Source: Shewanella vesiculosa
Lineage (GTDB): Bacteria > Pseudomonadota > Gammaproteobacteria > Enterobacterales > Shewanellaceae
DNA length: 64,000 bases
Direction of reading: 5' to 3'
NCBI RefSeq assembly: GCF_021560015.1
Contig: NZ_CP073588.1
Span: forward strand, 4,386,501 to 4,450,500
Of the stretch, positions 20,515 to 50,221 are shown piece by piece. Below the pieces are notes generated by a model, which was not told the DNA's origin, did not search any database, and saw only the letters and a program-made list of their open reading frames with translations. How positions within the stretch are numbered: position 1 is the stretch's first letter; the number at the start of each line of letters is the position of its first letter. The translations under genes were made by a program, and so were the position numbers.

Positions 20515-21921
20515 TTACTCTTCTGTAGGCTTGGCAGCGGGTTTTCGACGACGCTTGCGCTGTGGTGCATTTCGATTGCGAGTATTACTGCCTTTGATGC
20601 TTTTGGCGATATCACTGCGGTCAGTTTCATCGGCTTCAACAAACGCTTGCCACCAATCCGCTATCTTGGCGGTATTACCCGCTTCAACTTCACCGCGCAG
20701 TAGCAGCAAATCATAAGCTGCTCTAAATTTCGGGTGCTCTAGCAGTTTAAAGGCGCGGGTGCCTTGACCACGTTCTAAGCGCAGTTGTAATTGCCAAATG
20801 TCACGTGCTGGAGTACTAAAACGACGTGGTAAGCTAATGGTTAAACACTGTTTCTCAAGCACATCACCCATAGCTGCAACATAGGCATCGTAATGCGTTA
20901 GGCCACTTTCAATCGCGATATCATCTGCGCGTTGTTTAACTGGGTACCATAATATTGCGGCAAAGAAAAATGCTGGCGTAACGGTTTTATCTTCACTGAC
21001 TCGTAGGTCAGTATTACGCATAACGGTTTGCAGCATTTTAGCTGTATGACCTTTAGGCGACTCTTCAATTAGGGCACTCACTTGTGGGAACAGCGGAGCA
21101 AATAAACCAAAATCTTGCATCATGTGGTAATTCGCTTCGGCTTTACCGGCAAAGAATAATTTCAATACTTCTTCATACATGCGCGCCGCGGGAATATCAC
21201 CTAATAGTGGTGCGAGTGCTTTGATAGGATCGGCGGTAACGGCGTCGATTTGCATATCAAGTTTAGTCGCAAAACGAACGGCTCGAAGCATGCGCACCGG
21301 ATCTTCACGGTAACGGGTATCTGGATCGCCGATAAGTTTTATCTTGCGTGCATTAAGATCGTTTATTCCACCGCCATAACTGCGAATAGAGTAGTCGCTA
21401 ATGTCGTAGTAGAGTGCATTGATAGTGAAGTCACGACGTTCAGCATCTTCATCTATCTCACCATAAACGTTATCACGTAATAAACGACCTTCAGCGTTTG
21501 ATTTCGATACTTTGTCATTGCTTTCACTGTGGTGACCGCGGAACGTGGCAACCTCAATAACATCACGACCAAAAACGATATGTGCCAGTCTAAATCGACG
21601 GCCAACTAAACGACAGTTGCGAAATAACTTTTTAATATCATCTGGGGTAGCATTCGTCGCTACATCAAAGTCTTTTGGTTCTATGCCAAGCAGAATATCG
21701 CGAACACCACCGCCGACTAAATAGGCTTTGTAGCCCGATTTATTCAGACGATAGAGTACTTTAAGTGCATTTTCACTAATTTGGCGACGTGAAATTGAGT
21801 GACCATCTCTGGAGATAATATCCAGACGTAAGCCATCTTCTTGAATTGGCTCTTCAAGGACTGGAGCTACTTTGTTGTTTTCAAATAGCTGTTTGCAGAA
21901 TTGGCTAATACGGCGAAAAAT
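20515..21921 (-). CDS. pcnB: Poly(A) polymerase I PcnB, AUU start
   Basis: 468 residues if translation starts at ATT 21921-21919. No ATG, GTG or TTG in this frame fits the expected N-terminus. The first residues, (M)FRRISQFCKQLFE, line up with E. coli MFTRVANFCRKVL, whose gene is known to start with AUU. GAGG lies six bases upstream (21928-21931). The first in-frame ATG (21297) would remove the whole catalytic domain: YLVGGGVRDILLG, DFDVATNAT, FRNCRLVGRRFRLAH and RRDFTINALYYD all lie before it. The C-terminus is a basic Arg/Lys tail for RNA binding. PcnB adds 3' poly(A) tails that promote RNA decay. An IS lies just upstream. Confidence 0.93.
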   Translation of the reverse strand: MFRRISQFCKQLFENNKVAPVLEEPIQEDGLRLDIISRDGHSISRRQISENALKVLYRLNKSGYKAYLVGGGVRDILLGIEPKDFDVATNATPDDIKKLFRNCRLVGRRFRLAHIVFGRDVIEVATFRGHHSESNDKVSKSNAEGRLLRDNVYGEIDEDAERRDFTINALYYDISDYSIRSYGGGINDLNARKIKLIGDPDTRYREDPVRMLRAVRFATKLDMQIDAVTADPIKALAPLLGDIPAARMYEEVLKLFFAGKAEANYHMMQDFGLFAPLFPQVSALIEESPKGHTAKMLQTVMRNTDLRVSEDKTVTPAFFFAAILWYPVKQRADDIAIESGLTHYDAYVAAMGDVLEKQCLTISLPRRFSTPARDIWQLQLRLERGQGTRAFKLLEHPKFRAAYDLLLLRGEVEAGNTAKIADWWQAFVEADETDRSDIAKSIKGSNTRNRNAPQRKRRRKPAAKPTEE

Positions 21922-21931
21922 AATACACCTC
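21919..21931 (-). promoter_or_regulatory. Ribosome site and AUU start codon of pcnB
   Basis: On the minus strand: GAGG (21931-21928), six bases, then ATT. A second ATT (21924-21922) lies directly before it, but only three bases from GAGG, and would add one residue. An AUU start makes initiation weak and sensitive to IF3, which in E. coli keeps PcnB scarce. Confidence 0.8.
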
Positions 21932-21994
21932 GGGACGCTAGAATAATTTGATTAAAAATCTGGCGGGTATAATACATTAAATGTGACTGAATGA

Positions 21995-22002
21995 GTATAC
22001 GT
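21995..22002. repeat. Target-site duplication, left copy
   Basis: GTATACGT, identical to 23043-23050, directly flanking the IS1595-family element. Eight bases is the duplication length expected for this family. Confidence 0.9.
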
Positions 22003-23042
22003 AAGGGCTATCCACTTAGCACAACCAACCACTATATATTGTGGTTATCGATTTTTAATTGATTGGTACGTTATCGGCTTAGAACGCACTGCTTGTTCAA
22101 GCAACCTGTAGAATAATAATCCCCGAGAATCTGACTTTCTTCTATTGAAGCGAAATGTAAACTCATCTAAATAATAATCAAGTTGCTTAGCCTTTACCGC
22201 GCCTTGATATGTACCTAAAAGCCATCTTTTACATAATGATGAGACTCGATGCACCCCAGCCATTGTTTCATGTGCAGGTACAGATGAACCTAAATGCACT
22301 ATTCGGTTATGCTTATATCCTTTCTTGTCTATTTGTTTGTATGCTTGAGAGCCATCACTACAAATTGTACTACCAGGTTCAATTACATCTTGAATGAATT
22401 GATGGATATGTTCTTTGGTTGCACTTTCCACTTGCCTTAAACGTATCCGGCCAAATCCAGAGCGTGATAGCAGCTCAACTGCTACCAAAACTACAGCCTT
22501 ACGCTTACCCTGTTGATTTTTAATAGATGATTGGGGAACGACGCCACCTATTAGTGTTTCGTCAACCTCTACGATGCCGGACAGTTTATCCCTTTCAGGA
22601 TCAACCATGGCATACCTTAACTTGTGCATTAATGACCAAGCGGTTTGATAACTCCCAAGACCTAATAACCTTTGAACTCCAAGAGCGCTGACACCATTTT
22701 TTTGATTTGTAATAAACCAGACGGCAGCAAACCAACTTTTCATGGGGGTTCTTGTTTTGTCAAAAAGTGTACTTGATGTTACTGAACACTGAGAACGACA
22801 AGCATGACATTTTAACTTGCCATTACTTAACTGATAAGGTGATTGATGGCTTGAACAGCTTGGGCATATGAATCCGTTTGGCCAACGAAGTTTGTAAAGG
22901 TAGCTAATGCAGGATTGTTCATCATGAAACCAATCAACAAATTCGCCCCAACTTGTAGGGTAATCTACACCAGCTTTTAATAAATACGATGAAGTTTTCA
23001 TCACTACATATTGACACTGGTGGCGCTAAATGGATAGCCCTT
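22003..23042 (-). mobile_element. ISSod11-like IS1595-family insertion sequence (1,040 bp)
   Basis: The ends are inverted repeats: the left begins AAGGGCTATCCACTTAGC, the right (reverse complement) AAGGGCTATCCATTTAGC, with 21 of 24 end bases matching. Each side is flanked by the 8-bp repeat GTATACGT. One transposase gene fills the element. Size, ends, duplication length and transposase type all fit the IS1595 family, probably the ISSod11 group. It lies between gluQRS and pcnB, which are normally adjacent, and is oriented like them, so transposase transcripts may run into pcnB. Perfect duplications and an intact transposase point to a recent insertion. Confidence 0.92.
22045..23004 (-). CDS. 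IS1595-family transposase
   Basis: 319 residues, intact. An N-terminal zinc ribbon (CPSC ... CHAC, residues about 48-72) is followed by SSTLFDKTRTPMKSWFAAVW. The catalytic ISXO2-like DDE domain has its first Asp in VEVDETLIGG and second in TICSDGSQAY. The third position lies in GVHRVSSLCKRWLLGTYQG, where a His stands at the place often taken by Glu or Asn; this is typical of one subgroup of the family. The end LDEFTFRFNRRKSDSRG is conserved. Starts MM; either Met is possible. Confidence 0.93.
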   Translation of the reverse strand: MMKTSSYLLKAGVDYPTSWGEFVDWFHDEQSCISYLYKLRWPNGFICPSCSSHQSPYQLSNGKLKCHACRSQCSVTSSTLFDKTRTPMKSWFAAVWFITNQKNGVSALGVQRLLGLGSYQTAWSLMHKLRYAMVDPERDKLSGIVEVDETLIGGVVPQSSIKNQQGKRKAVVLVAVELLSRSGFGRIRLRQVESATKEHIHQFIQDVIEPGSTICSDGSQAYKQIDKKGYKHNRIVHLGSSVPAHETMAGVHRVSSLCKRWLLGTYQGAVKAKQLDYYLDEFTFRFNRRKSDSRGLLFYRLLEQAVRSKPITYQSIKNR

Positions 23043-23104: not shown

Positions 23105-23987
23105 CTAGTCGTTTCTAGTCGATATGATAATTTCTTTTTGTGCAGGAATCGCACTGAGATCAAATTGTGCTACTGCCTGCTTAAGCATCACATCAACTGC
23201 ATCAATATCCACTGTTTGTTGACCTAAAAATGTCAGCGCGGCGTTGATACTGGCTTGAGGGTGGACGATATCGATGGCAGAGGCATGATTCTGCTTTGAT
23301 AATTTAAAGCCTTTTTGTGTGCAGACTAAAGGTAAATGTAACCAATCAGGTGACGGAAAATTCAATTGAGTAAACAAGCTTATTTGGCGGCAACTTGCTT
23401 CAAGTAAATCACAGCCCCTAACCACTTCAGTAATACCTTGATAAGCATCATCAAGCACCACGGCGAGCTGGTATGCGAACAAACCATCGCTACGTTTAAT
23501 GATAAAGTCTTCATCAGCGAAGGCTTTATCAACCATCACATGACCTTGCAGTTGATCAACAAAGTGGTCCATTTTAACTTGGTTACGAATCCGAATTGCA
23601 CCTTGGGTCAGCCGTGGTGTCAATCGTCCGCATCGGCCATCGTACACTCCGCCACTGGTTTGAATAATTTTACGTGTGCACTGGCAATAATAACCCGCAT
23701 CACTTTCGATAAACGCATCAATCTGATCTTGATATACTTGATGTCGTTGATGTTGATATAGCACGCTACCATGCCAATGTAAGCCATAGGCATCAAGTGT
23801 GCGGAGGATATTGTCGCTGGCACCGGGTACTTCCCTAGGGGGGATCGATATCTTCTATGCGGACCAGCCATTGGCCTTTAAGGCTATGCGCACGCAGATA
23901 ACTGCCTAATGCCGCAATGAGTGAACCAAAATGCAGTGAGCCTGACGGGGATGGCGCAAAACGGCCAATATACGATGGGGTGATCAT
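23105..23987 (-). pseudogene. gluQ: Glutamyl-Q tRNA(Asp) synthetase GluQRS, frameshifted
   Basis: The enzyme glutamylates queuosine in tRNA(Asp). The N-terminal part (from [16 protein letters not shown], start 23987; a TTG at 24041 is possible) holds the ATP motif [14 protein letters not shown] and then stops right after RIEDIDPP at a TAG. Removing one base of the G6/C6 run at 23838-23843 restores [30 protein letters not shown] and joins it to the rest, which has zinc ligands (CQC, then DGRCGR) and the KMSKS-like KLSKQNH. So the coding content is complete except for one inserted base. It may be a real null mutation or a sequencing error. Order dksA-gluQ-pcnB is conserved in E. coli. Confidence 0.9.
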
Positions 23988-24709: not shown

Positions 24710-25413
24710 CTATACGACCACATTACAAGAATCGGTGATGGAACTTGCTTGCGGTGAAAGTGTTGTTTTATAGGCTAGCACTTCAACGCCATGTTCCATG
24801 GCTTGTTGAAGTAAGTCTGCATATTGCGGATCAATATGGCGCGCGGGTTGAACAGTGGTTATGCCACTGTGTTGTACCACAAATAATAATACCGCTCGAT
24901 GACCTAGAGTGACCATATGCATCAATTCTCTAAGATGCTTTTGCCCCCGAGTGGTAACGGCATCAGGAAAATAACCTATGTGTTGTTCTAAAAGGGTGCA
25001 ACTCTTCACTTCGATATAGCAATCTGCTCGATTAGGGCTGGTGAGCAATATATCGATCCGGCTATTTTCACTGCCGTACTTCACTTCACGTTTTAGATGC
25101 TCATAACCTAACAGTTCCGAAATCACTTGCCTCTTTATAGCATCTTCGGCAAGAGCATTGGCACGTCCGGTGTTAATCCCGATAAGGTGCTGCTGATCGG
25201 TTTGCATCAATTCCCAGGTGTGGGCGTATTTACGTTTTGGATTGTCTGAGGTAGAAAACCACACCGTCTCACCAGGAAATAAGCAATTTTTCATTGAACC
25301 AGTATTAGGACAATGAATGGTGATCTGTTCGCCATTGGCAAGCATGATGTCGGCAAGAAACGCTTATAACGTTTAATTAATATGCCAGATTCTAATTCGG
25401 GGATAAATTTCAT
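24710..25413 (-). pseudogene. sfsA: Sugar fermentation stimulation protein SfsA, frameshifted near its start
   Basis: The body (from [18 protein letters not shown]) has the SfsA pattern: [32 protein letters not shown] (Asp and ExK of a nuclease-like fold) and [17 protein letters not shown]. It lacks about 23 N-terminal residues. They are present upstream in another frame: ATG 25413, then [19 protein letters not shown]. One missing base near 25351-25357 (TTGCCGAC where TTGGCCGAC or similar is expected) separates the two parts. SfsA is a small conserved protein of unclear function linked to maltose metabolism in E. coli. Real mutation or read error is undecided. Confidence 0.82.
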
Positions 25414-25557
25414 CCATGACCCAAGTGTTGAGTTGATTTACAACAATGCTAACAAACTTTAGCTTGGTTTATCGATTATGTTTTGTCTACACTACTGCCA
25501 TTAGCTCGTGATTACGTGCGAGTATTGGTGTTCTTAGGCTTACAACAAGGGATTATT

Positions 25558-35123: not shown

Positions 35124-35951
35124 CTAATGTTTATCTAGCTGTTGCCTTAACTTTTTGATTTCATCGAGCATGTGTTGTTGGTTTTGTTCCATTTTCTGCT
35201 GGTTTAGCTGCATTTGCTCCAGCGCCATATTTAGCTGATTGTTAATGTGTTCTTTATGTGCCGTTTGGGCTTCTTGTGCCTCGGTACGTTCTTGCTCATC
35301 AGGAGCGACGAAAACAGAAGCCATGTAACCCGATATCACCCCAAAAAAGCTAACCCCGCTGATAATCACTAGCCCACCAATAACATGACCAATTGTAGTG
35401 ACAGGGTAAAAATCCCCATAACCGACTGTTGATATGGTCACTAAAGCCCACCAAATGGCTTGTTCTGCAGTTTGGATGTTGGCGTTAGGCTCAGCGCTTT
35501 CTACTAATAAAATAAGTACTGATGCAGCCGCTAAAATTAACACCATAGCGACCAATAAGCTGGCCAGAGTCGTTTGTTTACGTTGACGCAATAATGGGAT
35601 GAGTAATGAGCGACTCATGCGGATTAACCGAATGACTCTTAATATTTGGAATATACGTGCAAAACGCAGTGCTTCAATAGCCGGAATACTGGCAATAAAG
35701 TCAATCCAATGATGGCGGATGTAAAAGGCTTTGTTGCGTGCTTTGACTAAACCATAGAAAAATTTGGTCATGAAAATGACACATATGGTCGTGTCGATAT
35801 AGAGTAAGACTTTGTTCGTTTCAGCGCCTAACTTGCCGAACGTCATGGTCAATACAATAACCACTGAAATTAATGATAACACCATCATCGCGAGTTCGAA
35901 TGGACTCGGACCATCGACGTTTTTAATTGACCAACTTTTAGATTCGAGCAT
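35124..35951 (-). CDS. Ion transporter, voltage-gated potassium-channel type
   Basis: 275 residues. Several membrane segments between about residues 15 and 210: an S1-S4-like part including the Arg-rich FARIFQILRVIRLIRMSRS (S4), then S5, pore and S6. The pore loop holds the potassium filter ISTVGYGDFYPVT. The C-terminal 60 residues are a Gln/Glu-rich coiled coil (EHINNQLNMALEQMQLNQQK), likely for tetramer assembly. It lies next to the PspA-like module on the same strand but is separated by a terminator at 36015-36051, so it probably has its own promoter. Confidence 0.9.
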   Translation of the reverse strand: MLESKSWSIKNVDGPSPFELAMMVLSLISVVIVLTMTFGKLGAETNKVLLYIDTTICVIFMTKFFYGLVKARNKAFYIRHHWIDFIASIPAIEALRFARIFQILRVIRLIRMSRSLLIPLLRQRKQTTLASLLVAMVLILAAASVLILLVESAEPNANIQTAEQAIWWALVTISTVGYGDFYPVTTIGHVIGGLVIISGVSFFGVISGYMASVFVAPDEQERTEAQEAQTAHKEHINNQLNMALEQMQLNQQKMEQNQQHMLDEIKKLRQQLDKH

Positions 35952-36080: not shown

Positions 36081-36416
36081 TTATTTTGCTGATTTATTAT
36101 CAACGAAGTGGACTAAGTCATCTAACACACGCTTTTTAATTTCCAGTTGTGACTCACTGTCTAAACCGTATTTCTGCGCTAAAATAACATAGTCAGCAGC
36201 ATCTAATGACACGGTTAAACGCGGACGTTTAGGTCGTTTAGATACCGATAATCCTAGTATCGTCCTAATTTGGTCTGATGGACTCACGCCTTTGTCTAAG
36301 GCCGCTTTGCGGATCGAGTATTGAAACTTCTCATCCAGATCAAAAGCCACTTGAGTCGCTTTCGCCGCTTGTTGGTTTTTAAGCCATTTCTCTGGTAACG
36401 GTTTGCCTGAACTCAT
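36081..36416 (-). CDS. Tandem ribbon-helix-helix-like protein
   Basis: 111 residues, no signal or membrane segment. Two units look like ribbon-helix-helix folds: about residues 20-54 (TQVAFDLDEKFQYSI... DKGVSPSDQIRTIL) and about 62-102 (RLTVSLDAADYVILAQKYGL...KKRVLDDL), joined by the basic linker KRPKRPR. Each has a short beta strand, two helices and an RHH-like turn. It is the last gene of the DUF2170-PspA-DUF2491 operon (23-base gap). I infer a DNA-binding autoregulator; the palindromes upstream of both operons of the module would be natural targets. I do not know a family name. Confidence 0.65.
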   Translation of the reverse strand: MSSGKPLPEKWLKNQQAAKATQVAFDLDEKFQYSIRKAALDKGVSPSDQIRTILGLSVSKRPKRPRLTVSLDAADYVILAQKYGLDSESQLEIKKRVLDDLVHFVDNKSAK

Positions 36417-36439
36417 TAGAAAATCGTCTCCTACCTGTA

Positions 36440-37093
36440 TCAGCTTGCTGGCCAGTATTCTCTAATATCTGTCAGTGGTCGATATAATGTCAACATCACT
36501 TCAGTGTCGCCACTTTCGTAAACTTCAATATCTACCACATGAGAGTCAGCAGAGTTGACTAAGCTGTAGCCTTCAAAACCTTCACCGCGGGCATCATCGT
36601 CATTTTGAGGCGGCTTTAAATCTCGATAATCTTGACGATGGAAGTAGCCAAAACTAGCAAATTCGGCTTGATGATATTCATCACTGAGCCATTTATCTAG
36701 CTCGGTCGCTAATTCGTCATTCAGAGTTTGCAGAGTGAGTGTTGCTTTACCTGGTTCTTCAAATATTTCTGCAAATGCATCAAGGTCAAACAATTGTTCA
36801 ACCAGATCACGATTTATTTTGATTGAAATACTTAAGTAAGATTCGTCTTCTTGAATATAGGATAGGTAAATTGCCGTGCCGCTATGGCCACGCAATAAGA
36901 ATTCACAAAGCTGCGAGCGCTGGTATTCATAAGTATGAATAGCCTCAACCTTAAGCTGTTGCCCACGTAATTGCGTGGGCAAAGCAAAACTGTCATCAAA
37001 GGTGATCATATCACCCTTGAGCAGTTTATTAGGGTGGTCAAGCTGACGCTTCGGGGCTTCTTTTTTGCCGAATAGGCCGCTAAGAAATCCCAT
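36440..37093 (-). CDS. DUF2491 family protein (YjfK-like)
   Basis: 217 residues, soluble, acidic. The N-terminus MGFLSGLFGKKEAPKRQ and the late stretch EVYESGDTEVMLTLYRPL fit the DUF2491/YjfK family. It is found in the order yjfI-yjfJ-yjfK in E. coli; here it follows the PspA-like gene by six bases, which is the same order. Function unknown; linkage implies a role with the PspA-like protein at the inner membrane. Confidence 0.82.
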   Translation of the reverse strand: MGFLSGLFGKKEAPKRQLDHPNKLLKGDMITFDDSFALPTQLRGQQLKVEAIHTYEYQRSQLCEFLLRGHSGTAIYLSYIQEDESYLSISIKINRDLVEQLFDLDAFAEIFEEPGKATLTLQTLNDELATELDKWLSDEYHQAEFASFGYFHRQDYRDLKPPQNDDDARGEGFEGYSLVNSADSHVVDIEVYESGDTEVMLTLYRPLTDIREYWPAS

Positions 37094-37099
37094 AATCGC

Positions 37100-37789
37100 T
37101 TAGCCTTTACGTGCTTTGATGCGATCTAACACTGCATTAGCATTCGACTTTTGCTCACCAATACCCGCTTCTGCTAGTTTTGCGTGTAATGACTTATCGC
37201 TATTTTCTTCAGCTAAGGTTTCAGACGCTTTTAAGCGGTCATCAAACTGCTGCTGACGTGCTTTGATGCGCTCAAGTGAATCTTTAGCATTAAGCAGTTT
37301 TGAGTTGCTTGAAGCAAATGAGTCAGTGATAGTCGCAGTCGCTTTTTGTACACTTTCAGTTGTTTTGACCATGGTTAATTGACGTTGATAATCATTTAAC
37401 TGACGCTCGGTCTTTTTAACTAAGTCTTTTAAACGCACTGCATGCGAACTAAAGCTGTCATTGGCAGTTTGTTGCTCGGCTAACTCTTCGTCTAATTGAG
37501 CAATCTTTTCTGCAATTTCAATCGCTAATGCTTCATTGCCTTTTTCTAGCGCTTGGGTGACATAACCTTCGTGCTCAGCAACGCTGCGCTTTAAGCGATC
37601 AATTTCGCGGCTAGCTTGCATTTCTTTGGCCATCACGTCGGTTAATTCACGTTTAGCGCGAGTTAAATGTTTTTCTGCATCTCGAATTTCTTGTTCAAAA
37701 ATACGAGTTGAGTTTGCGTCAACGATATTTTGGCCAACTTCTGTTGCACCACCACGAAACGCTGTAAGAATCTTGTTTAGAATGCCCAT
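37100..37789 (-). CDS. PspA/IM30 family protein (YjfJ-like)
   Basis: 229 residues, nearly all coiled coil. The start MGILNKILTAFRGGATEVGQ is an amphipathic helix as used by PspA/Vipp1 proteins to touch membranes, and RAKRELTDVMAKEMQASREI resembles the PspA core. PspA proteins polymerise on stressed inner membranes. This is the YjfJ-type paralogue tied to DUF2170 and DUF2491, not the psp-operon PspA, since no pspB/C/F genes are nearby. Starts ten bases after the DUF2170 stop. Confidence 0.88.
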   Translation of the reverse strand: MGILNKILTAFRGGATEVGQNIVDANSTRIFEQEIRDAEKHLTRAKRELTDVMAKEMQASREIDRLKRSVAEHEGYVTQALEKGNEALAIEIAEKIAQLDEELAEQQTANDSFSSHAVRLKDLVKKTERQLNDYQRQLTMVKTTESVQKATATITDSFASSNSKLLNAKDSLERIKARQQQFDDRLKASETLAEENSDKSLHAKLAEAGIGEQKSNANAVLDRIKARKG

Positions 37790-37799
37790 AATTGGCTCC

Positions 37800-38213
37800 T
37801 TAGTTTAAAAATTCGACGAGTTCGTCGATGACTTCCAGACAGTTGTCTGACAGTACTGCTAATTCTTGTTCAATCTCTTCCATGCTTGAAAGCACAGATA
37901 AAGCTCCGTAAACCACATATTTATCATCAATTTTAGCAAACGATGATAATGGCATTGGAATGTTCAGTTCTAACATGGTCTCAAACATTTCAGACCGACG
38001 AGCTTGATTTACTTCGTTTTCGCCCCACAAGTAACTGATGCACAATATTTGGTTATCAGTTACTGATACAAACACCGGAATTTCTTCGCGGCCGACAATA
38101 TTGACTTGTAACACTTCAACATCACCGTCAATCGGATAACAATCAAATTGAAAACCGGTTTTGCTGTGATCGCACAGTCCGTTTAGATGACTTGCAATAG
38201 TATGGATGTTCAT
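37800..38213 (-). CDS. DUF2170 family protein (YjfI-like)
   Basis: 137 residues from ATG 38213 (MNIHTIASHLNGL), with AAGGA six bases upstream; the frame extends upstream to 38258, but that part overlaps the promoter. Acidic, soluble. Motifs such as DGDVEVLQVNI, VSVTDNQILCISYLW and EMFETMLELNIPMPLSSFAKI fit DUF2170. It is the first gene of the operon DUF2170-PspA-DUF2491-RHH. Function unknown. Two copies of a 15-bp operator flank its promoter. Confidence 0.85.
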   Translation of the reverse strand: MNIHTIASHLNGLCDHSKTGFQFDCYPIDGDVEVLQVNIVGREEIPVFVSVTDNQILCISYLWGENEVNQARRSEMFETMLELNIPMPLSSFAKIDDKYVVYGALSVLSSMEEIEQELAVLSDNCLEVIDELVEFLN

Positions 38214-38226
38214 ATTCGTCCTTAAT

Positions 38227-38241
38227 TGACATATTATGTCT
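38227..38241. promoter_or_regulatory. Operator copy 1 of the membrane module
   Basis: TGACATATTATGTCT, nearly palindromic (core GACATA-T-TATGTC). It lies 14 bases upstream of the DUF2170 start, covering or just following the expected transcription start (about 38242). The same 15 bases occur inverted at 38261-38275. Confidence 0.8.
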
Positions 38242-38248
38242 GTGAGTA

Positions 38249-38276
38249 AAGATAGCATCTAGACATAATATGTCAA
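38249..38276 (-). promoter_or_regulatory. Promoter of the DUF2170-PspA operon
   Basis: On the minus strand: consensus -35 TTGACA (38276-38271), 16-base spacer, -10 TATCTT (38254-38249, four of six consensus bases). The -35 is embedded in operator copy 2, so binding there should block RNA polymerase. Confidence 0.7.
38261..38275. promoter_or_regulatory. Operator copy 2 of the membrane module
   Basis: AGACATAATATGTCA, the exact reverse complement of 38227-38241. Centre-to-centre distance of the two is 34 bases, roughly three helical turns, so both could be bound on the same face of DNA. Confidence 0.8.
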
Positions 38277-38292
38277 GCGCTATCTGGTCCAA

Positions 38293-40054
38293 TTAAAAAA
38301 GATTAATTACTTCATTTTCTGACCAAGCTGCTAAATGGTAGTAATACAGCTGCAGTGAACCAATTTCGTTCACTTTGATCTTGTCTATATCGGCATAAAA
38401 ATGCTTAGGGAATTCAAATGAACCATGGATAAGCCCAGGAGTAAGCCATTCTTCTGGCACCGGAATATTATCGATGGCGGCTAATCGCTGTTGTGGATTT
38501 TTGCCCATCTTACTGCCGATACTCCAACCCCATTCCCCAAAGCTCGGCACATTATGATGATACTGTTTTACATTAAATCCTGCTGCAGTAAGGGTTTTTC
38601 CCACCGATATAAACGCTTTTGGCGCATGATAAGGTGACGTTGACTGCACAGTGATCACGCCATCTGCACTGAGTAATTCATTGAGCTTGCGATAAAATAA
38701 ATCTGAATACAATTTATTTAAGTCTGGGTGGCTTGGGTCAGGCAAATCGACAATGATGGCATCAAATATTTGACCTTTTTGGATCAGCTTATCAACCCCC
38801 GTTAAACGCATCATCGACCATTAAGGTTAAGCGTGGATCGTTTAACGCATCGCCATTTAATGCTAATAATGCATCGCTTAAGCGTTTGGGCATATCTGCT
38901 GGTGGCGATTTAAATAAGGCTAATAGGTCTTTATCCAAATCCATTAAAGTAACGGCTTTAGGTTGCCATTTGAGTACTTGTTTTAACCCTAGGCCATCAC
39001 CACCGCCAATAATTAACACATTATCGTGCCGTGCGCTGGCTGCTAATGTTGGGTGAACTAAAAAGCTGTGATAGATGTGTTCGTCGCTGCTCGAAAATTG
39101 CAAACGGCCATTGATGTATAAATTATAAACTGGCGGTAAACCACCTCCGCGCAGACGCTCAGTAAAATTGAGTTGCTGGAAGCGCGTTGCTTTGGCATAC
39201 ACCACATGATCTTTATATAACAGGTTATTAAAATGCTGTTCCCAGCTAGGGCCTTTAACGGCCAATAAACCAATCACCACACTGGCAATAATATGGCCTA
39301 TGAGCAGCAATTTAACATGATTGATTTTTGACCAGAAACGCCAAATAAAGATTAGCCCTGCGATGAGGTTAACACTGGCGGTGAGTGCTGCAGCCAGTTG
39401 AATATCGATGGCCAACATAAAGCCGACCCAAATCGCGGCACCTATGCCTGCACCAATGTAATCGGCACCATATATGGTGCCGGCATTATGCAGTAAGTGT
39501 GCTTCAGACAAAGATTGCCGAACGCGGGCAATCAGCGGTATTTCCATGCCAATCATTAACCCAAGCAGTACGCCCCAAACATAGGGTAGGTATGCGCTAA
39601 GGGTTTGCAAACTTGCAATAAAGCCACCATTAGGTAGGTGATCCGGCGGCAGCCCTAAAGTATTGGCGATGGTTAATGGCAGTTGTTGACCAAAGCCAAT
39701 TACGGCAGCGGTAACGATAATCGCAAATGAGCCACACAGTGCTACGGTTAATTCGAGCATAGCAAAGCCAGTGAAAGCGCATTTAATTTTCCGTGCAGCA
39801 AAGGCTCCCACACCCATAGACACAATCATCAAGCCTATCATGGTGTAAATAGCTGCTTCTAGTGCGCCAAGAATTCGGCCCGCATAGTGAGATAATAGAT
39901 ATTCATAAATAAGACCACATCCCGCCAACGAGGCCATGATGCCGAGTAATAAGGCATCATCAAACCACGATACTTGACGGGATGGAGGGGAACTTTGCTG
40001 TGAGCCCCCTGATGTAGTGTTAGCGGGAAGTTCATCGAGCAAAGGTGTTGTCAT
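38293..40054 (-). pseudogene. Membrane-bound spermidine-synthase-like protein, frameshifted
   Basis: About 586 residues when one base of the C5 run at 38796-38800 is removed; as written the first part ends MVDDAFNGG and the rest lies in another frame. N-terminal half: about seven or more membrane segments starting near residue 30. C-terminal half: spermidine-synthase fold with NVLIIGGGDGLGLKQVLKW (AdoMet-type glycine loop), VTLMDLDKDLL (acidic residue binding the ribose) and, after the break, DAIIVDLPDPSHPDLNKLYSDLFY. It probably transfers an aminopropyl or related group at the membrane; the substrate is not known. It starts three bases after DUF350 on the same strand. Confidence 0.85.
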
Positions 40055-40057
40055 AAA

Positions 40058-40957
40058 TTAAGCCATTAACGCCGTAAGAATAAGAGCCACGGCAATACTA
40101 ATCGCCATTTCAACGGCTGCGATACCGATGTTTTGTTGTTTTTCGACTTCCTCGGCAAGATTAATACCGGCCAATACCAGTTTTTTTACCACGGTTATCA
40201 ATAGCGATAATACCACCAACATAATCAGTGAAAATACGCACCAACCAATAATGTTACTGACGTGAGCCGTTGGATTGTATGCAATGAAATGGCTTGCGGC
40301 GTTAAAGCTTAACGCCATGGCAATCATGTAACCGCTATGACGCAATGCTAATGCCGTTTGGCCCTGGGTTAAGGCTTGTTGCATTGACGCACCTTGATTA
40401 CGTTGAGCGTAACGTTTTTCGCGCAGTCTGGTGAGAATAACTAACATTAATTGGGAGATTAAGAAGGCGCTGAAAATAGCGATGAAGGTATCGATGGTAA
40501 TATCTTCTGCCCACATTAATACTGCGCGGATAATAATGGCAGTGGCAATAGCCGCCGCCGCATCAACCACAGCCACAGAGACATTACCTTTGAGAATTTC
40601 AGCGTTTTTCGCAAATTCATTTAAGGCGATTTTGTCGTGTAAAAAACGACCCAATTTAATCAGTACTAAACCAAATAAGCCGTACGCCGACATGCCAATC
40701 GCTTCGGTTAAATAAGACGGTGCAGCCTCGCCGGTTATGGCGCCTGTAAGCACAATGCCTAATGCTGCGATTGCACCTGCTGTACTAATACCAAAGGCGA
40801 AATTGTCACGTTCTGCTAGCTCGGCACTGCTGTTAACTTTAACACTCCAGCCTTGCAAGTAACGCATTAGCGTCAGTAAAACGATAGCGATGGTTAAATC
40901 AATGGCTAAGATAATCGCCAAATGTTGAGTTAAGCCATATTCTTGAAAAAATGTCAT
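40058..40957 (-). CDS. DUF350 family membrane protein (YjfL-like)
   Basis: 299 residues with about eight hydrophobic segments arranged as two similar halves (residues 15-140 and 150-298), as in two DUF350 units. The E. coli relative YjfL is shorter and is encoded with yjfJ and yjfK. No transport motif is visible. Starts 13 bases after the lipoprotein stop and ends three bases before the spermidine-synthase-like start, so the three form an operon. Confidence 0.82.
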   Translation of the reverse strand: MTFFQEYGLTQHLAIILAIDLTIAIVLLTLMRYLQGWSVKVNSSAELAERDNFAFGISTAGAIAALGIVLTGAITGEAAPSYLTEAIGMSAYGLFGLVLIKLGRFLHDKIALNEFAKNAEILKGNVSVAVVDAAAAIATAIIIRAVLMWAEDITIDTFIAIFSAFLISQLMLVILTRLREKRYAQRNQGASMQQALTQGQTALALRHSGYMIAMALSFNAASHFIAYNPTAHVSNIIGWCVFSLIMLVVLSLLITVVKKLVLAGINLAEEVEKQQNIGIAAVEMAISIAVALILTALMA

Positions 40958-40970
40958 GGTGAGTCCTTAC

Positions 40971-41934
40971 CTATTTTCCACGGCTAACACCGCGACTAGT
41001 GCGGCTGCTTGAGTTACGGAAACTGCTGTCTTTTGAATAGCTCGAACGAAATTTTCTACTCGCGCTCTGAGTGGTACTACTGGCTTTGGGTGCGCTAGCA
41101 CTTTGACGCGACAAGCTTGTAGAACCTGTTCGAGTTTTTGCATAAGGGCTGTCAAATCGCTTCCCCTGGCTGTCAAAACGTTTCTTGGTTTGTTCAAAGG
41201 TTTTTGCTTGCGAAGTGGCTTGTTTTGGAGAGGTATAACGGTAACGTCCTACATCATTATAATAGCTGTAACCACGGTTACCCGACCAACGGTCGTAACT
41301 TGTTGGACGAGTGAAGTTAGAAAACATCGCATACATGCCATACCAAGCCCAAATCGATGTGCCACTTGAATTGTTTTGCCAGCTACCATAAGCAGGATTA
41401 CCCACAAGCTGGCTACCAGCACCACCAACGTCGGTTCCATTCGCGAGCGCTTCGGCTTCACGGCTGATTGCATTGACTCTGGCCAGTTGGCCATTAGACA
41501 TATCAGCGACAACATTGACTGGATCAGACAGCATATCATTATACAAACTGCTGTCTGCAGCTTGATAAACATTTTGAGCTTCAGCCAGTTGCTGGTCTAA
41601 ATCAATAAAGTTAGCGCTATCGTTTAAGTCTTTATAACGACGCGTTAATGACTGAAACATTGGACCTTCAGTGCCGGCATCTTTTGCCAACTCTTCGAGT
41701 AAAGGTGTTAAGTCTGATTGGCGCTGAGCGAGAATACTGGTGTATTGTTTAAGTAACGTCGCATTACGCAGCTGATTGTTGTCGAGTGAACTGGCCAACA
41801 GATCAAGACGTTGTTGGGTCAGTTGCTGGTACTTAGCAATTTGTTCCGGTCGGTCGTCACCGCAACCGCTAAGGGCTAACGTGGCAAACAATACCGTTAT
41901 CAATATGAGTACACGGGGGGAGGTGACCTACCAT
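40971..41934 (-). CDS. Lipoprotein of the DUF350 operon, frameshifted in its signal peptide
   Basis: The mature body starts at lipobox LALSGC followed by GDDRPEQIAKYQQL. As written, the frame opens only at TTG 41903. Removing one base of the C6 run at 41915-41920 gives a much better start: ATG 41934, with GGAG eight to five bases before, encoding MVGHLPRVLILITVLFATLALSGC, a complete lipoprotein signal peptide. The mature part has a helical N-half (to about 160), a Trp/Tyr/Gly-rich middle, and a long Ser/Arg-rich tail (from about 215) resembling low-complexity tails of YgiB-type lipoproteins. Function unknown. It is the first gene of its operon. Confidence 0.75.
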
Positions 41935-49303: not shown

Positions 49304-50221
49304 TTATGGATTAATGCGAGTTGGCATACCTGTACGTTGCTCTAGCAATCGCTTTAATATAAATGAGTCAGTTTGTGGGTGAGCAACAAAGCGAGTGGTT
49401 TCTTTATCAAATGATAATGCTACTGGCTCAGTCGAATCAAACTCAGCTTGAGTGCGTGATAGCGGCTGATGAACTTCTAAATAACGATTACCATCAGGTT
49501 CTTCAGTCGCTTTAATGGGTTGGTTAATAAATTCAACACGAGTACCTACTGGCACGGTATTAAATAAATGTTCAATATCTTCATCGCGTAAACGAACACA
49601 ACCAGAACTGACGCGTAAACCAATACCAAAGGTGGCGTTAGTGCCATGGATTGCATATAAGTTACCTACATACAGTGCGAACAAACCCATTGGATTATCA
49701 GCGCCTGCAGGCCATACTGCTGGTAATGTCACTCCTTTTGCTTCGTAAGATTTACGAATATTAGCAGTTGGTGTCCACGTTGGGTTTGCGCGTTTACGTT
49801 GAATGGTTGTTACCCACTTTTCTGGAGTGTCTTTACCAATTTGGCCAATACCAATAGGCAATACTTCAACAATCTTTTCCTTTTGGGAAATAATATAAAC
49901 GCATTTCAGCGCTGTTTATCACTACGCCTTCACGTTTAGTGTTCGGCAAAATTAGCTGATGTGGGATTAATAAAGTGCTACCGGCTTTGGGTAAAAAGAG
50001 GGATCCACGCCAGGGTTGGCTTCTAATAAGTTAGTTAATCCGAGCTGAAATTTTGAGGCGATTTGTTCTAGGGTTAACTTGCCCTCAGGAACAACATAGT
50101 ATTGATTTTCACCGACTAAATTGCTGCCTTTAGCAGGTAGACGATATTCAACAGCAGCACTCGAAAAACTGAGTACCATAGCCGTTGCTGCAATTAAAGT
50201 AGTGCGTAACGAATTCATCAT
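49304..50221 (-). pseudogene. L,D-transpeptidase (ErfK/YbiS type), two frame breaks
   Basis: Three fragments in three frames make one complete enzyme. The N-part (from ATG 50221) has a signal peptide and a LysM-like region ([25 protein letters not shown]). The middle reads [20 protein letters not shown] and [14 protein letters not shown]. The C-part has the catalytic YkuD motif [20 protein letters not shown] with its His, Ser, Cys and Arg. The breaks lie at 49993-50006 (around A5/GGG) and 49873-49885 (two T4 runs). It would cross-link peptidoglycan or attach lipoproteins in the periplasm. Two separate breaks make a true pseudogene more likely here than in the single-break genes. Confidence 0.85.

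Follow-up and report, generated by a model that had tools for sequence, protein, structure and literature searches.

A run of genes on the minus strand of Shewanella vesiculosa contig NZ_CP073588.1 encodes what may be, at its core, an enzyme–substrate pair: a periplasm-facing, membrane-embedded transferase would aminopropylate the C-terminal lysine of a neighbouring lipoprotein. Judging from sequences and predicted structures, we put the probability of this reading at roughly 0.4. It gives the operon enzyme a defined candidate substrate, the last lysine of the lipoprotein. The evidence, obtained computationally, comprises the linkage of the genes, the retention of active-site columns, a predicted topology, a lack of cysteine, the lysine tail and the co-occurrence of an AdoMet decarboxylase.

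An ORF check of the window, that is, of the whole stretch of 64,000 nucleotides analysed, found all the genes of the preliminary description on the minus strand and at the positions it had assigned to them. The first gene of the run (40971–41903) codes for the lipoprotein, with the lipobox LSGC, Cys14, a helical body and a disordered Ser/Arg-rich tail, and is followed by that for a DUF350 membrane protein with two DUF350 stretches (40058–40957; PF03994, E 1e-37). The enzyme comes next, in two parts that both match PF01564 and NF002956: a 5′ part with seven helices and the first half of the catalytic domain (38792–40054) and a 3′ part (38293–38814) that is read in a different frame and has the xDLPDP motif. 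Further along are a DUF2170 protein of the YjfI/BacA family (37800–38258; PF09938, E 8e-37), a YjfJ-type protein of the PspA/IM30 family (37100–37789; PF04012, PspA_IM30, E 5e-41), a DUF4178-like protein (36440–37093), a small protein (36081–36416) and, as the last gene of the run, an ion channel of the voltage-gated potassium type (35124–35951; PF00520, PF07885). The earlier DUF2170, PspA, DUF350, spermidine-synthase-like and ion channel labels are each backed by Pfam matches. The DUF2491 label of the 36440–37093 product lacks support from Pfam, in which no DUF2491 match was obtained at E up to 0.1; its sole Pfam match is to DUF4178 (PF13785), sub-threshold at E 0.08, and DUF4178 is the name used for this gene in passages on the published operon (PMC11237479). 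As a YjfK homologue this protein is likewise unsupported (25.6% probability, hhalign against a single YjfK sequence). The small protein had been called RHH-like; it has no Pfam or NCBIfam match above cut-off, and the label stands by analogy with an RHH gene reported there for some cases in passages of PMC11237479. The DUF2170 proteins are described as CesT/Tir-like in passages of PMC11237479 and PMC10948618. A second PspA is encoded elsewhere in the genome.

The preliminary description had split these genes between two operons and had missed the broken enzyme frame, along with the DUF4178 label and the prior publication of the operon type. Because the enzyme frame is broken at 38796–38800 and resumes in another frame to 38293, the genes form a single run, in which the 3′ part of the enzyme ends 34 bases before the DUF2170 gene. 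The 38792–40054 frame ends at a TGA right after a run of five Gs (38796–38800, minus strand); the 5′ part covers positions 1–83 of PF01564 and 6–367 of NF002956, and the 3′ part positions 85–179 and 369–521, respectively. All 27 readable relatives (22 from the same genus, 5 others) are in frame at this spot, and a programmed frameshift was rejected on this ground. One same-genus copy (L057) escaped the motif of the frame script, yet has a full-length open frame, and another (G001) is split at a different place. Three further genes of the window, gluQ, an L,D-transpeptidase gene and sfsA, also look frame-broken, making an assembly error likelier than gene decay; the break in the enzyme is probably such an error.

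The view of these genes as a co-inherited membrane module gained support from 80 loci of named genomes, 65 of which have the lipoprotein, DUF350, enzyme, DUF2170, PspA and DUF4178-like genes together, seven of them in permuted order. Counted by family, the lipoprotein is present in 75 loci, DUF350 in 76, DUF2170 in 70, PspA and the DUF4178-like gene in 69 each and the small RHH-like gene in 63. The potassium channel, earlier suggested to be associated, occurs in 47 of the 80 loci and lies inside the run in several of the permuted ones. PspA, supposed in the preliminary description to coat damaged membrane, is not obligatory, since 10 of the 80 loci, one of them a 6.6 kb contig (L151), have the lipoprotein, DUF350 and the enzyme without it.

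All 13 tested active-site columns of the enzyme are invariant in an alignment of 93 relatives, and they include columns around what we take to be the site of the amine acceptor. The preliminary description would have been refuted by genes that do not co-occur or by missing polyamine-site residues; the genes do co-occur and the residues are retained. The relatives have the SpdSyn fold together with its active-site residues, which in the window copy are split over two frames, and the structure matches listed for the enzyme are filled by the SpdSyn domain (sequence homologues: 120 listed of 4356; the split enzyme of L065 was left out of the enzyme profile). Two other SpdSyn-like proteins of the genome, which have no GGGDG motif, were set aside. 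An intact relative of 592 aa is modelled as seven helices followed by the SpdSyn fold, and transfer of its helix coordinates to the window enzyme, by a 6-residue offset, places the membrane domain at 39224–39967 (minus strand). The K/R-rich N-terminus and the even loops of this domain are predicted to be cytoplasmic, and the positive-inside charge bias sets the catalytic domain outside the cytoplasm in 59/59 rows, so that this domain seems to face outward from the inner membrane. The catalytic domain is devoid of cysteine in 80/80 sequences, the canonical relatives averaging 4.8 (18 ORFs of 240–345 aa, from 20 control synthase loci). As evidence of topology the lack of cysteine is weak alone, since the cytoplasmic PspA is also nearly Cys-free. 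The seven modelled helices, the uniform charge bias and the cysteine-free domain all argue against a cytoplasmic enzyme that acts either on the lipoprotein tail prior to its export or on a cytoplasmic partner such as PspA. The donor and most of the partners are cytoplasmic, as presumably is the sister ligase YjfC, acting before export, and a cytoplasmic domain would agree with this; we nevertheless consider such an arrangement very unlikely.

The lipoprotein has no Pfam family above cut-off, and its model has no solved-fold match at E up to 0.001; homology with YjfM is not supported (0.7% probability, hhalign with a single E. coli sequence). In the AlphaFold model the body is confident and residues 275–310 have a pLDDT <50. 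This C-terminal tail (40974–41081, minus strand) ends in SRGVSRGK and, by comparison with homologue tails, offers Lys310 as the candidate site; K310 is invariant in a 46-row alignment. A -GK end is found in 73 of the 75 lipoprotein ORFs of the survey, one of the others ending in -SK and one (L171) being short and without the tail; the initial count was limited to 290–380 aa, outside which lay L171 and L152, which ends in GK. The same end is present in 28/28 lipoproteins of the relatives set and in 120/120 among the lipoprotein matches listed (699 homologues in total), the three sets sharing species. One locus (L156) has the enzyme and no recognised lipoprotein.

Lysine-ended tails also accompany distant relatives of the enzyme, which lie beside other membrane-anchored proteins of this kind in 18/34 loci, against 5/445 in the control, or in 14/29 when five loci seen before the tail filter was fixed are omitted, the filter having been set after examples were seen. 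In the stretch tested, no lysine-tail ORF was found at the remaining 16 of the 34. The five control ORFs ending in GK are three DUF4178-like proteins, one PspA and one unlabelled ORF (L169), at a place assigned elsewhere to an AdoMet decarboxylase-like ORF. The partner proteins differ in body yet have the C-terminal lysine, and some are small, single-helix proteins. Some neighbours of the distant relatives end in poly-Asp.

A lysine at the very C-terminus of a lipoprotein recalls the Braun lipoprotein Lpp, in which it is joined to peptidoglycan by L,D-transpeptidases. The lysine could be an attachment point of this sort, the enzyme having another job, and the partner is indeed a lipoprotein whose long tail is disordered and ends in Lys. 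Moreover, an L,D-transpeptidase-like gene is present in 10/80 loci, in six following the operon within ~3 kb on the other strand and in four lying 4–8 kb upstream (Pfam YkuD was confirmed for one of these genes), and in the window such a gene is found from 49304 onward, >7 kb from the lipoprotein. The same profile, however, finds none in the 34 distant loci, and the tail tracks the enzyme family across differing bodies, including the small single-helix proteins. We regard peptidoglycan attachment as a serious, if rather improbable, alternative.

An AdoMet decarboxylase is present in 29/29 related genomes that have the enzyme. The S. vesiculosa genome has a class 2 decarboxylase (PF01536, E 8e-57), and the class 1 enzyme (PF02675) was not found in it; the absence of any AdoMet decarboxylase from the genus, suggested by PF02675 alone, would have spoken against an aminopropyl donor and is ruled out by matches to PF01536, the eukaryotic-type family, in this and in 23/23 same-genus genomes. 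All 24 same-genus genomes searched (own included) keep the decarboxylase, and in 21 of them the query had no synthase-like match other than the operon enzyme, which bears on the use of decarboxylated AdoMet in the genus in question. In the class sample 11 fused enzymes were counted, weak or partial matches (G077, G119, G120 and G123) being excluded. One genome (G181) has the fused enzyme and a GK lipoprotein, and an AdoMet decarboxylase was not detected in it.

From these features we infer aminopropyl transfer, donor transport and a downstream role. The seven-helix membrane enzyme would hold its spermidine-synthase-type domain on the periplasmic side and would move an aminopropyl group from decarboxylated AdoMet onto the amine in the side chain of the C-terminal lysine, the modified lipoprotein tail gaining a spermidine-like tip. 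The donor would come from the class 2 decarboxylase encoded elsewhere in the genome (in this genus) or from a class 1 enzyme encoded near the operon (in some others). We know of no extracytoplasmic pool of decarboxylated AdoMet; possibly, the membrane domain exports it. Under membrane stress, the channel, DUF350, PspA/DUF2170 and the DUF4178-like protein may then recognise the modified envelope protein or make use of it. The preliminary description had favoured a membrane or lipid target; the evidence favours a protein one, the lysine-ended tail of the lipoprotein. Alternatively, the enzyme may make or sense free polyamine at the membrane, or aminopropylate an unspecified substrate so as to alter the membrane, the Lys tail being a docking or membrane-binding element only. 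Polyamine monitoring or membrane alteration is what Ravi et al. proposed, in passages of PMC11237479. The retention of the synthase-family active-site columns would suit an enzyme that makes polyamine, but this alternative does not account for a C-terminal lysine common to partners with different bodies. Moreover, Li et al. in 2019 are said to have described membrane fusions of the MFS-SpdSyn type in genomes with AdoMet decarboxylase, reportedly finding that the fused enzymes are not spermidine synthases and that spermidine was absent, and naming no substrate for them. On balance we find a role in free polyamine or in general membrane alteration unlikely and retain the lipoprotein lysine as the candidate target.

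Operons of this type have been described before (Ravi et al., 2024; PMC11237479). As described in passages of that paper, the second group of CesT/Tir-PspA operons (e.g., AAN56744.1, AAN56746.1 and AAN56747.1) has in common with the window DUF2170, PspA, a 7TM-SpdSyn fusion, an 8TM DUF350 protein, a lipoprotein and DUF4178; the run fits this gene content, with a DUF4178 match below threshold. Those passages name a potassium channel for the third group only, whereas here the channel is in a group-two run. The word 'periplasm' is absent from the text of PMC11237479, and in the passages covered there is no mention of a C-terminal Lys tail that is conserved. Set against search listings and passages of PMC11237479, PMC10948618, PMC12492005, PMC12270671, PMC12568646, PMC11107197 and PMC10407285, the active-site, topology, cysteine, lysine-tail and decarboxylase findings appear to be new. 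The enzyme has in common with SpeE and polyamine aminopropyltransferases (1uir, 7xif, 3o4f) the fold and the tested columns of the active-site region; it differs in its additional seven-helix membrane domain and C-terminal extension and in a domain that has no cysteine and is predicted to be extracytoplasmic. Lpp and the operon lipoprotein are both lipoproteins with a C-terminal Lys, but we know of no polyamine enzyme partner for Lpp. A polyamine-derived group on a protein lysine has a precedent in the deoxyhypusine of eIF5A, and an aminopropyl group on a peptide in microcin C, although these involve other enzymes and other sites and are cytoplasmic.

The E. coli yjfI-J-K-L-M-C locus is as the preliminary description had it. 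It shares with the run DUF2170, PspA and DUF350 near a polyamine enzyme, and beside that enzyme it has a DUF1190 protein whose tail is basic and of low complexity; in E. coli ygiBC, too, a DUF1190 gene adjoins the ligase gene. In contrast to the transferase-type enzyme described here, YjfC and YgiC, which are peptide-spermidine ligases, are ATP-grasp ligases; the yjf locus has DUF2491 where the operon has the DUF4178-like protein; and the DUF1190 homologues are mostly Gly-ended, none of the 110 examined ending in Lys, as the operon lipoprotein does. The nine window ORFs scanned gave no ATP-grasp or DUF1190 match, DUF1190 was not found in the S. vesiculosa genome, and no ORF in the 80 related loci was labelled YjfC by a profile made from one sequence. 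YjfC of E. coli may catalyse an equivalent modification, with Gly-ended tails as its target. More broadly, and tentatively, since we would not call it probable, there may be a widespread envelope system in which membrane enzymes with extracytoplasmic aminopropyltransferase domains tag membrane-anchored proteins on their C-terminal lysine, YjfC and YgiC reaching a similar spermidine-like tip by way of the carboxylate of the glycine at which DUF1190 proteins end. Such a system, if real, would be a periplasmic bacterial counterpart of hypusine, would suggest a substrate for YjfC and YgiC of E. coli and would provide the uncharacterised yjf stress operon with a biochemical core.

The genes under study form one run on the reverse strand, from position 41903 down to 35124, which encodes, in 5' to 3' order, a lipoprotein, a double DUF350 protein, a membrane spermidine-synthase-like enzyme, DUF2170, PspA, a DUF4178-like protein, a small RHH-like protein and an ion channel. 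The enzyme is read in two frames, 38792-40054 and 38293-38814, which match positions 6-367 and 369-521, respectively, of one shared NCBIfam profile; the frame breaks at five G at 38796-38800, where all 27 relatives that our script could read are in frame. Because inclusion of the 3' part of the enzyme brings the gap to the DUF2170 gene to 34 bases, the two operons of the preliminary description merge into a single run. The break is more probably due to an assembly error, since gluQ (23105-23900), sfsA (24710-25430) and an L,D-transpeptidase gene (49304-50150), all on the reverse strand, also look frame-interrupted, which suggests an indel-rich assembly. An IS1595-family transposase gene (22045-23004, reverse strand) sits between gluQ and pcnB (20515-22000, reverse strand). 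The open frame of pcnB extends upstream, and the ORF scan found no ATG, GTG or TTG start for it; pcnB of E. coli starts with AUU and, by analogy, the gene in the window may have a conserved unusual start codon.

The enzyme is encoded in the window's genome and in all 23 same-genus relatives, and is split in the former and in one relative (G001, locus L065), at a different position. One intact same-genus copy is identical to the enzyme of a named Shewanella, and the named entries among its listed homologues likewise come from Shewanella, which makes this genus the very probable source of the window. The order lipoprotein-DUF350-enzyme-DUF2170-PspA-DUF4178-RHH is found in 22/22 of the same-genus regions that reach past the enzyme (the remaining one of the 23, L043, stops at a contig edge), and the channel gene comes next in 21 of these 22, L048 being without it. 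Among the best 80 of 576 loci from named genomes, the enzyme is present in 80, DUF350 in 76, the lipoprotein in 75, DUF2170 in 70, PspA and the DUF4178-like protein in 69 each, the RHH-like protein in 63 and the channel in 47. Both halves of the gene set co-occur in 65 of these 80 loci, which bears out the linkage first proposed from the sequence; the lipoprotein occurs without PspA in ten. Moreover, in seven loci (L158, L166, L167, L169, L172, L173 and L176) the core genes are permuted, lipoprotein-DUF350 lying at the far end; the RHH-like gene is missing from three of these loci and the channel gene from one. Since the core genes are kept together in spite of the permutation, these loci argue for function rather than inherited neighbourhood.

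The lipoprotein (40971-41903, reverse strand) is modelled as a confident helical body followed by a disordered Ser/Arg-rich tail at residues 275-310. Its last two residues are -GK in 73 of 75 ORFs from the best 80 of 576 loci (-SK takes their place in L153, and the tail is absent from the short ORF of L171), in 28/28 lipoproteins of the relatives and in 120/120 of the database homologues listed among 699, three sets that share species; by way of control, 5/867 other ORFs from the same loci end in GK. The tail is kept in all ten surveyed loci without PspA. We also screened 34 distant loci, whose fused enzymes share 30-44% identity with the query or are the query itself and its neighbours, for ORFs ending between -400 and +250 bases of the enzyme start, with at least 11 G/S/R/T in the last 20 residues, a terminal K and a G among the preceding three residues. 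Such an ORF was found in 18/34 loci, several of them closely related to one another, versus 5/445 other ORF starts; the filter was fixed after seeing examples, and 14/29 loci remain positive when the five first viewed are removed. In the other 16 loci no tail ORF was found within that interval; K-ended tails are present elsewhere in the regions of L232, L234 and L235, and others of these 16 loci have a neighbour with a poly-Asp end. By inspection, the bodies of the distant tail proteins are lipoproteins, proteins of 50-100 residues with one N-terminal hydrophobic segment, or long proteins. The long type (L226, L232, L233 and L234) ends in ...YSSGGGHK or similar, and in L226 and L233 starts with a zinc-ribbon-like stretch; in L233 a hydrophobic segment lies immediately ahead of the tail, which would therefore face the periplasm. 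Neighbours at L219, L220, L241 and L242 end in poly-Asp, that of L220 on the opposite strand, and are perhaps a different type of tail.

In the structure model, seven helices precede the catalytic domain of the enzyme. Across 59 aligned sequences the mean K+R count is 10.7 in the N-terminal stretch plus loops 2, 4 and 6 versus 1.7 in loops 1, 3 and 5, with no exceptions; the distant set has the same loop bias and a weaker one at the N-terminus. On these charges, the positive-inside rule predicts a cytoplasmic N-terminus and a periplasmic catalytic domain. The catalytic domain (about 316 residues) lacks Cys in all 80 sequences from the best 80 of 576 loci, although the cytoplasmic PspA is nearly Cys-free too; in the membrane part of these enzymes Cys makes up 1.1%, and 18 canonical synthases average 4.8 Cys, none being Cys-free. 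The last 270 residues of the 34 distant fusions contain 0.11% Cys, and 25 are Cys-free.

We tentatively propose, with a probability of about 0.4, that the enzyme, working on the periplasmic side, aminopropylates the C-terminal lysine of the lipoprotein. Supply of decarboxylated AdoMet there would be the weakest step; the membrane domain might, at a guess, export it. The presence of PspA, DUF350 and the channel hints at a putative role of the mark in membrane stress. As for the donor, the 24 same-genus genomes yielded no class 1 AdoMet decarboxylase, but the class 2 (eukaryotic-type) enzyme is present in the window's genome (G000:C1:1475650-1476492) and 23/23 relatives; among 185 class-wide genomes, class 2 occurs in one, the window's own. 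Of 40 genomes including this one, 29 (mostly one genus; six by family) encode the fused enzyme, each of them together with a decarboxylase; among the remaining 11, a decarboxylase occurs in exactly the three with a weak match confined to the synthase domain. In the class-wide sample, 101/185 genomes have a decarboxylase, as do 10 of the 11 with a strong fused match (seven close, four distant), G181 lacking it. A home-made profile finds a decarboxylase-like gene within 11/80 close (best 80 of 576) and 11/34 distant loci, and Pfam confirmed four of the four checked among these 22. Among the SpdSyn-like proteins found in the window's genome, GGGDG is present in the operon enzyme only.

The strongest rival is that the terminal lysine is joined to peptidoglycan. 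Braun lipoprotein, likewise lysine-ended, is attached in this way by L,D-transpeptidases, and the window holds an L,D-transpeptidase gene. L,D-transpeptidase-like genes occur in 10/80 loci (best 80 of 576), six directly behind the operon on the opposite strand (L122, L125, L126, L129, L137 and L138; that of L125 confirmed by Pfam as YkuD, Ldt_C and LysM) and four upstream (L098, L099, L116 and L117), and are possibly relevant to the lysine-ended lipoprotein; the identical profile, however, finds none in the 34 distant loci.

Ravi et al. (2024; PMC11237479) describe three PspA groups, of which this operon is one, and propose for it the monitoring of polyamines or the aminopropylation of other substrates; a 2025 report (PMC12492005) describes up-regulation of E. 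coli yjfIJKL in heat-adapted strains. With these papers and the annotation of YjfC and YgiC as peptide-spermidine ligases, the core idea of the preliminary description is already in print. The operon is known; our searches of open-licence papers, as far as their accessible text goes, brought up no reading of it as a pair for extracytoplasmic protein modification. In the E. coli sister system, YjfM and YgiB have tails ending in -GG. This also holds for three DUF1190 proteins of other genomes; two of these proteins are encoded beside a gene matching GSP_synth (YjfC family), the third at a contig edge. The last residue of 110 DUF1190 homologues is Gly in 92 (GG in 73), Ser in 17, Thr in one and Lys in none. 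The side chain of lysine resembles putrescine, and aminopropyl-lysine would therefore resemble spermidine. A ligase of the YjfC/YgiC type, joining an amine to a carboxylate, would suit a Gly end, whereas a transferase of the operon type, which needs an amine, would suit a Lys end.
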